This document shows positions 38,301 to 41,300 of a stretch of DNA of 64,000 nucleotides, in pieces. Position 1 is the stretch's first letter. Each line of letters begins with the position of its first letter. The stretch comes from Heliocidaris erythrogramma (taxonomy: Eukaryota > Echinodermata > Echinoidea > Camarodonta > Echinometridae): contig CM046859.1 of assembly GCA_025617745.1 (NCBI GenBank), positions 25,528,871-25,592,870 of the forward strand, written 5' to 3'. A model generated the notes under the pieces. That model was not told the DNA's origin and ran no database searches. It saw nothing but the letters and a program-made list of their open reading frames with translations. A program made the translations under genes and the position numbers.

Positions 38301-41300
38301 CAATAGGAAAAAGCATTTGTTTGTATGTGTATTTTGGGGAATTTAGCAACGGGTAGAGCTATTCAACCTATAAACATGATTTGAGAGATCACGTCTTCGA
38401 CCATATAAATTTCATATTCAAGGGACCCTTCCATAGGAATCACAAATGAAGGATCACCCAAAACATGGCCCAGGGTGCATAAAAAACTGGGTAGTGATTC
38501 TAATTCACTACATGTAGTGCAAAAAAAATACCTCCTTCACATTTGAAACTGTAAACCACTTTAAGACAAAAGAATGAACCTGCAAACAAACAAAAAAAGC
38601 ATGCTAGGTGGGCTTCACAATTTTGTGTGCCATGAGCCTACAACACACAGATAAGAAAGTACACATCATGGGTGTGGCTTCCTGACAATTCACACAAAAT
38701 GTTTTCAATTTGTCATGGCTGTATTTCAAGACTGGTTACATCATCATATGTGAATGAGGCACAAAAGTGTTAAAATTAAAGCATGCACTTTTATGAGACT
38801 ATGGTATCAACAAGTAAGTAACAATGGTGATGTGGAGGTGTGAAAGCAAATGAAGTAAAAGAGAATGAAATGAATGCTCAAAGACCACACTGCCAAGTAT
38901 CTAAGAGGAACTAGAGCCACTTGCTCTCAAATTCTGTTCTCAAAGTTGCATCGCTTATAAGAAAGGCGGGGGCATGACTGACATTTCAATAGCTACATTT
39001 TGGAAAGGTTGTGAGGTAACCACGCTATTAAGAGCTACTCTAAAATGCTTTAAAAGGCTGTCATTTTTCAGATTTTTAATCCTGTTCACCTTTTATTGTC
39101 CCTAACAGTGAGACCTCAGGCAAGGTTTCTTATCACAAAATGTCTCATCTTGTATGGCAGCAAAATGCAATCTCAAATTGTTGTCCATGCAGGGACAAAA
39201 TAATCTTTCACACCATACAGACAGTGAAATACAAAAAACTAATTATGATTAAAAATATGTTGCATGGAAAGAATCTCTGCATACATACGCCCTTAGCTCG
39301 TAACATTTTTGAACTATCAAACCATCTTGGAAATGGATAGAAACACACAAAAAAGAGAGAATGGCTTGCATTTCATATTTCATTAACGCTCAATTTTGTA
39401 AGACAGTGCTGTGCAAGAGCAACACAACTCAATAATGAAACACAGTGGTGAAAGCAATAGTAGTGCGTACCCTCTGCGAGCCTCTCCAAACGTTTACCAT
39501 GTTCAGTGGGGATAGCATACCTAGATCAACACACACAGGACACAAAAGGTTATACACATCAAATAGAAAAATTATACACATATGGCAGATTTGAGGCAAC
39601 ACTGATCAATCGTAACTTCATGATCTGAGGGAAGTATCTTTAATCCATTGAATACTATGCGTTTGTTTATGATGAGCAGATAATGCAGAGACGCGAGTTG
39701 TGGAAATCAAATATTGTATTGAAGAGATTAATGCAGTACCAAAACGCTTGCAAACAATATCGTCTGCTAAGAACCAGAAAGGCGTTAACTCACTGTTAAG
39801 GGATACAATTTTAAGTCTTTCGGTGTCACAGGGGACAATATTTGGCTTAAAAGAATTGAATACAATTACACCAGAAATGAAATTCTCGAATGAAAATAAG
39901 ACCATCTCATCTCTACTCCATCAATGCTATCATTTTGTCATTCAAAACAAATTCTGATTTGTTTTTTTACAAACTATTTCAACTAGCAAAGTTTTGAAGC
40001 TTATTTCGAGATAGATAATGAAGTTACAATTGCACTCAGCAGCACCTCTAACCGCCCACAGTCACATAGATCACTTACCAGTAGCTAACCTCTCCAGGCG
40101 TTTACCATGCTCAGGAGGGATAGCATACCTGTTTTCATAAAGTCATTCAAGGAATAAGAAGTTGTGAAAGGTTTAGAGACGTATGTTTATGACCATAATG
40201 CAACATGACATTCATCATTGTTTCCTGTAGATTCAGCTATATTGAGCTAAATGTTTATATACATTTTCCTTTCTTCAACAACTTAACTTTACAAATGAAC
40301 ATAATAAACTGAAACATATAGACTAACTGCATTGAAAACATTATCTTCAGCATTATCTTCAAAGATTTATATGCAATCCATGTCATGTCGACTACCAATC
40401 CTAAAAGATTATGCTCATCACTATGATGGTCAGGTACACCATGTATGGAATCAATTAATTGTTTGGTAAAGTGACTAGTTCAGGGGAGCGTTTCATCAAG
40501 CGTTTGTCAGTGATTTTTACAGACATATTTGCTCTCAGCCAATCAGATGCAAGGATTTCAGTAGCTTATAACAGTTGTCGGTACAAATCACTGACAAAAC
40601 GCTTGATGAAACGCTCCCCATGTCTATACCTATTAGTACCTATCAGTTATTGAAAGTACAAATCCTAGACATGAGGGGCCAATTTGTACCCTTCACACCA
40701 ATGGCCCATCACTATTTGGCATGTTTGACTTGATTCACTGTATAATTTACCAAGACTTTGGAGCACCATAGTGGAGATAGTTAATGCTGTAGAGATCCAG
40801 GTCTTCAGTGTGCCAGGCAAATGTTGTCTTCCACATTCCAAAGTAGAGGTAGGCAGTGTTCACACCCTCTATCTTCACACCTGAAGCAATGTGACATAAA
40901 TAGGAGTAATGTGAAAATGAGAACACAGTTCACATCATATCATATCATATTGCAAGAACATTCAAACTGAAGAGTCTGCACTAGCACTATCCTAAATGTT
41001 TTTGCTTGAGTATGAACATTTTCTTCAAGGTTATAGAATTTTATGATTACAGAGAAACCACAAATAAATTGCCAGTATAGTATCCCAACAACCACTGATT
41101 ACAATGCCAACATTTTTTTTTTATCTTGAGGGCACACATGTTTGAAGTAAAAACTTTGGAAAAAAGGTCAAGTTTTACAGGGTAGAGCCATATTAACTTC
41201 TTATTGACAAGTAAGCATATAAGACAGCCAAGTGATGAGTTGAAAATCAACAAACAAAAATACCAAATACAATATTTAGGTACAGTGTGTGCATAAAACA

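Follow-up and report, generated by a model that had tools for sequence, protein, structure and literature searches.

On the minus strand of the window, which is the whole 64,000-nt stretch of DNA analysed here, a KDM4-type histone demethylase gene extends from ~43.2 to 19.8 kb. Exons 1 to 7 encode the JmjN and JmjC domains (Pfam profiles PF02375 and PF02373, both above cut-off). The JmjN-JmjC part could be aligned with human KDM4C over 290 residues (E 7e-158), and its nearest solved relatives were KDM4C, followed by KDM4A and KDM4B. The downstream exons, which were joined by eye, encode a PHD, an extended PHD and two Tudor stretches according to Pfam profiles. PF13832, PF13831 (PHD_2) and PF18104 ("Jumonji domain-containing protein 2A Tudor domain", in two stretches) were found above cut-off, and PF00628 (PHD) was just under it (23.9 vs 24). 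The arrangement of JmjN, JmjC, PHD, extended PHD and double Tudor is the layout of KDM4A-C. The domain set supports the identification of the gene as a KDM4 (JMJD2) demethylase with predicted H3K9/H3K36 activity, and the Pfam domains agree with the first-pass annotation of this DNA, which had placed a pair of alternative exons in the JmjC core of a KDM4 gene. The parts of the gene are listed below, in a model that leaves out exons between about 35.5 and 27.7 kb.

43054..43188, minus strand: KDM4 coding exon 1, 135 nt; start of JmjN (PF02375), with the ATG at 43188
42287..42459, minus strand: KDM4 exon 2, 173 nt
41719..41897, minus strand: KDM4 exon 3, 179 nt
40751..40880, minus strand: KDM4 exon 4, 130 nt; precedes the pair and carries two Fe ligands, H186 and E188, and the 2OG-binding K204
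40079..40128, minus strand: exon 5a, 50 nt; 16-residue peptide, weak acceptor and strong donor
39521..40078, minus strand: intron between 5a and 5b, 558 nt
39471..39520, minus strand: exon 5b, 50 nt; 16-residue peptide, with a better acceptor and a weaker donor than 5a
37123..37226, minus strand: KDM4 exon 6, 104 nt; follows the pair and carries the zinc ligands C232 and H238
36559..36696, minus strand: KDM4 exon 7, 138 nt; end of JmjC
19831..35708, minus strand: remaining KDM4 gene, with the PHD, extended PHD, double Tudor and C-terminal exons

Exons 5a and 5b, both on the minus strand, agree in length (50 nt) and in phase, and each has GT-AG borders. With introns in lower case, the borders are aaaacag/GTATGC and CTACTG/gtaagt for 5a, and gatctag/GTATGC and GCAGAGG/gtacgc for 5b. 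The codon of Trp-206, begun in exon 4, is completed by the first base of either copy. The 4-5a-6 and 4-5b-6 mRNAs each run for 303 codons through exon 7 with no stop, whereas the inclusion of both copies or of neither results in a frameshift and then an early stop. The spliced translations confirm the earlier claim that the copies share their phases and that only one of them at a time keeps the frame, and the coordinates given for the two 50-nt exons, the end of exon 4 (40751) and the start of exon 6 (37226) all match. The 17-residue peptides of the first-pass annotation include a Gly that is completed by exon 6; the exon-only peptides have 16 residues.

The position of the pair within the enzyme was established by alignment with human KDM4C. 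The roles of the human Fe, 2OG and zinc ligands, as described in sections of PMC6010108, were transferred by this alignment; these sections give the zinc histidine once as His240 and once as His220, and His240 was adopted here. H186, E188, K204, C232 and H238 are present in both isoforms, and all five are located outside the 50-nt exon. Counting on the KDM4C alignment showed that the numbering previously given for K204, C232 and H238 was right and that exon 5 sits between K204 and C232. The two isoforms differ at residue 211, which is Pro in 5a and Thr in 5b, and at residue 222, which is Thr in 5a and Glu in 5b. At the position of residue 211, both human KDM4C and KDM4B carry Pro, and at that of residue 222 they carry Gln or Ile, indicating that position 222 varies among the paralogues. 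The Pfam JmjC score was 144.4 bits with 5a and 145.0 bits with 5b. The description of the pair as alternative catalytic-core exons is thus correct by position; however, the two variable residues are not Fe, 2OG or zinc ligands, and the JmjC scores are practically equal. Judged from the sequence, the 5a and 5b enzymes should each fold and may each be active, and they are more likely to differ subtly than to represent an active/inactive switch. The gene likely gives rise to two demethylase forms, which may differ in function.

Chance resemblance between 5a and 5b was ruled out by a pattern scan with shuffled controls. A degenerate 29-nt pattern of exon 5, with up to 3 mismatches allowed, matched only 5a and 5b in the 64 kb, each with 0 mismatches, and gave 0 matches in 100 shuffles. 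A tblastn search of the window with the peptides of exons 1 to 7 returned a second copy for exon 5 only (E 1.6e-6), and none of the other six exon peptides had a second match below E 0.18 in the window. The two copies are identical at 39 of 50 positions (78%). In the flanks, the identity was 40% for the 20 nt adjoining the exon on either side, splice signals included, and 24-32% over 50-100 nt. Flanks of 200 nt aligned no better than shuffles, the upstream score being reached by 195 and the downstream score by 151 of 500. The flanking introns are therefore unrelated, from which it follows that the duplication is old and that the exon alone has been preserved. A recent duplication was rejected, since the intron flanks share nothing above chance and the silent divergence of the copies is high.

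The copies differ at 11 of 50 bases, of which 4 are first, 1 is a second and 6 are third codon positions, and only 2 of the 16 residues differ. The NG86 method yielded a dN of 0.13 and a dS of 1.05 for 5a against 5b, and silent change exceeded amino acid change with a Fisher p of 0.006 (one-sided test on rounded counts). Neutral evolution to 11 differences was simulated in 20,000 runs, and no more than two amino acid changes and no stop were seen in 0.0005 of them. With one copy held constant as protein and the other drifting, this outcome was reached in 0.0043 of the runs when starting from 5a and in 0.0033 when starting from 5b (10,000 runs each). All of these tests compare two copies only, over 16 codons, under simple mutation models. 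Because simulations with a neutral copy so rarely yield so few amino acid changes, both copies look to be under selection as protein, as had been suggested before.

Splice sites were scored with generic frequencies, and the scores are accordingly rough. The acceptor and donor scored -5.0 and 6.7 for 5a, and 2.1 and 3.2 for 5b; the exon 4 donor and the exon 6 acceptor were weak, with 0.3 each. The strong donor of 5a together with the better acceptor of 5b would favour the joining of 5a to 5b, which is the frameshifted product. The scores are therefore evidence against tight exclusion, unless this joining is blocked. Incompatibility between U2 and U12 sites was rejected as the device enforcing exclusion, since the donors GTAAATTATA, GTAAGTGATC and GTACGCACTA are not U12-like by comparison with the U12 donor consensus. 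A steric block or a distant branch point (less than ~50 nt from the upstream donor) was also rejected, judged by intron length and AG positions: the intron is 558 nt long, and the final AG ahead of the 5b acceptor lies 79 nt upstream of it, leaving an AG-free zone of 79 nt. The upstream 200-nt flanks of the two exons showed no common selector sequence. The motifs TGCATG, TGTGTG, ACTAAC, TTTTTT and CTCTCT were not enriched in the three introns, their observed counts being reached by at least 45 of 300 shuffles in all 15 motif-intron combinations. Sections of a survey of human mutually exclusive exons (MXEs) report that 377 of 629 clusters (60%) contain exons whose length is not a multiple of three, which makes joint inclusion non-functional, and that reads joining both exons occur in only 83 of these 377 clusters (PMC5740500). 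The scarcity of such reads suggests that exclusion usually depends on more than the reading frame.

We also searched the introns around the pair for complementary stretches that could form RNA stems. The arms of the possible stems and the repeats in the same introns are as follows.

39851..39870, minus strand: 5' arm of a possible stem that would loop out 5b, in the 5a-5b intron; 19 of 20 positions paired with 37952-37971
37952..37971, minus strand: 3' arm of the possible loop-out stem, in the intron before exon 6
40013..40032, minus strand: 5' arm of a possible internal stem of the 5a-5b intron; 18 of 20 positions paired with 39607-39626
39607..39626, minus strand: 3' arm of the possible internal stem, partner of 40013-40032
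40479..40622, no strand assigned: palindromic, MITE-like repeat of the intron upstream of 5a; orientation opposite to that of the 37272-37426 copy
37272..37426, no strand assigned: palindromic, MITE-like repeat of the intron upstream of exon 6

Five intron pairings were tested, of which two beat shuffles as stems, two were ordinary and one was a transposon pair. With the MITE and a homopolymer stretch removed from the intron before exon 6, none of 200 dinucleotide shuffles equalled the stem that would loop out 5b; the internal stem was equalled by 1 of 200. Over slightly longer stretches, the duplex energies were -22.2 kcal/mol for the loop-out stem and -28.2 kcal/mol for the internal stem. 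The two stems interleave and thus could compete with each other. The ordinary pairings were those of the intron upstream of 5a with the intron upstream of exon 6 once the MITE-like repeats were taken out (53 of 200 shuffles as good) and with the 5a-5b intron (104 of 200). With the repeats left in place, the pairing between the introns upstream of 5a and of exon 6 was dominated by the inverted MITE-like pair (0 of 50 shuffles as good). The loop-out stem has a high AT content. One of its arms recurs at 44276 as a third copy, with 3 mismatches, which hints at a dispersed repeat. We regard both stems as leads rather than results. In the Dscam and 14-3-3zeta exon clusters, exclusion relies on a docking-selector mechanism. 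Competing intronic structures are conceivable here too, but no shared selector as in those clusters was found within the 200 nt ahead of each exon.

The MITE-like repeat is a palindrome of ~140 nt present in at least seven places in the window, two of them partial: 40479-40622, 37272-37426, 41336-41465, 21652-21794, 21231-21366, 24000-24060 and 57107-57198. The inverted copies that flank both alternative exons are 93% complementary over 118 nt and might promote exon skipping or the formation of circular RNA. An Rfam scan of the window gave 0 matches at the gathering score.

Exon pairs of this kind are well known, whereas the instance in KDM4 may be undescribed. The previous remark that no such KDM4 case was known held for the open-access literature among the matches listed; the pair may already be annotated elsewhere. 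Two human surveys offer a comparison: PMC9741552 describes 236 tandem duplicated exon substitution events, of which half are internal, and PMC5740500 the 629 MXE clusters mentioned above. Like the KDM4 pair, the exons described there are homologous, phase-matched neighbours of equal length; one copy is used, the residue changes are conservative, and inclusion of both often causes a frameshift. The human set of duplicated exons is enriched in ion channels and membrane proteins, as opposed to the histone demethylase found here. Words starting with "KDM" or "demethylase" are absent from the main texts of PMC9741552 and PMC5740500.

Exons 4a and 4b of human OGDH are likewise a mutually exclusive pair in a 2-oxoglutarate-using enzyme. 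According to the relevant sections of PMC7969005, their exclusion depends on distant branch points, at 25-41 nt from the exon 4a 5' splice site, and Ca2+ sensing is altered by the pair. A branch point of the OGDH type is unfit for the KDM4 pair, given the 558-nt intron and its AG-free zone of 79 nt. Among the human KDM4A-D demethylases, KDM4A-C have the same JmjN, JmjC, PHD, extended PHD and double Tudor architecture as this gene. The human KDM4 isoforms in the part of PMC11241480 concerned with them are predicted truncations, unlike the alternative core exons here, and the mouse Kdm4dl isoform in the corresponding part of PMC7253418 has a redefined reading frame and is different from a core-exon pair. 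When viral and prokaryotic contigs were scanned for relatives of the KDM4 gene, 4 and 60 pattern matches were obtained, none of which was confirmed, as expected for an animal gene.

Taken together, the pair is very probably an old tandem exon duplication of which both copies have been kept as mutually exclusive alternatives in the KDM4 core. A 50-nt KDM4 exon would have been duplicated in tandem long ago and both copies retained, and we infer that both are expressed. An mRNA in which either 5a or 5b links exon 4 with exon 6 would encode the full JmjC domain, and transcripts with both copies or neither would be frameshifted, stop early and presumably be degraded. The frame itself would in this way enforce exclusivity at the protein level, and additional splicing control is likely. 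The two enzymes would differ at residues 211 and 222, in the segment that separates the 2OG-binding lysine from the first zinc ligand. The effect is probably subtle and might concern, for instance, stability, regulation or partners. 5b could be a minor or recently abandoned exon.

Several other explanations were weighed against this one. That two alleles of one exon were set side by side as an assembly or haplotype artefact is suggested by the similarity of the copies, but it is extremely unlikely in view of flanking introns without likeness above chance and an exon silent divergence of about 1 per site, far beyond ordinary allelic divergence. Alternatively, 5b may be a decaying duplicate that is no longer spliced, leaving 5a as the sole functional exon, consistent with the Pro that 5a shares with human KDM4C and KDM4B at residue 211 and with the stronger donor of 5a. 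However, the 5b acceptor outscores that of 5a, and the frame, length and both splice sites of 5b have remained intact while its flanks diverged beyond recognition. Furthermore, a neutral copy ended with at most two changes and no stop in only 0.0033-0.0043 of the simulations, and we consider decay of 5b quite improbable.

The pair might instead act mainly as a level switch, in which products with both copies or neither are targeted to NMD and tune the KDM4 dose, the protein difference being irrelevant. The early stops in both types of product and the donor and acceptor scores in favour of 5a-5b joining are consistent with such a role. A pure poison exon, however, needs no amino acid conservation, yet the silent sites of the copies changed much faster; a switch of this kind is unlikely as the main function, although it may coexist with mutually exclusive use of the two copies. 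Active enforcement of exclusion by intronic RNA structure, through competition between the stem looping out 5b and the internal stem of the 5a-5b intron, is a refinement of the preferred explanation rather than its opposite. The pairing of 19 and 18 of 20 positions, rarely equalled by shuffles (0/200 and 1/200), speaks for it. On the other hand, two of the five pairings were ordinary and a third was the transposon pair, the loop-out stem is AT-rich with an arm copy at 44276 that hints at a dispersed repeat, and 5a and 5b share no selector in their upstream 200 nt, which together make enforcement by structure rather improbable.

A more far-reaching reading is that 5a and 5b specify two core isozymes with different activity, substrate choice or regulation, owing for instance to a modifiable Thr-211 or the charge change at residue 222, with a stage- or tissue-specific splice switch steered by the interleaving stems. 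We consider this doubtful. If it were true, the splice switch would tune H3K9/H3K36 demethylation, for which vertebrates use separate KDM4 paralogues instead. Duplicated exons used in a mutually exclusive way are rare, yet they often have a function. A pair in the JmjC core would offer natural, minimal two-residue isozymes with which that enzyme surface could be probed, and would tie splicing control directly to the removal of histone marks. Retention of the pair in relatives would point to a long-standing function not known from vertebrate KDM4s.

Several other features were observed in the window. A THAP domain open frame (PF05485), possibly a transposon remnant, is located at 33203-33544 inside the KDM4 gene, on the same minus strand and between the JmjC and PHD exons. 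Repeat units at 35900-36540 (minus strand) occupy part of the intron after exon 7, and near-identical peptides occur there in several open frames. Upstream of the KDM4 gene and on the same strand, protein-tyrosine-phosphatase exons (PF00102) were found at 60587-62536. On the plus strand, an intronless open frame of 903 residues (6899-9610) contains four ubiquitin-like stretches (PF00240); by eye, the first Met is followed by a hydrophobic segment similar to a signal peptide, and a long charged stretch resembles a coiled coil. A long simple repeat occupies 58390-59170, where the GC skew is strong (0.449 over 58001-60000). This repeat is open in several frames, which encode peptides rich in G/E/R/K or in P/F/S/L.
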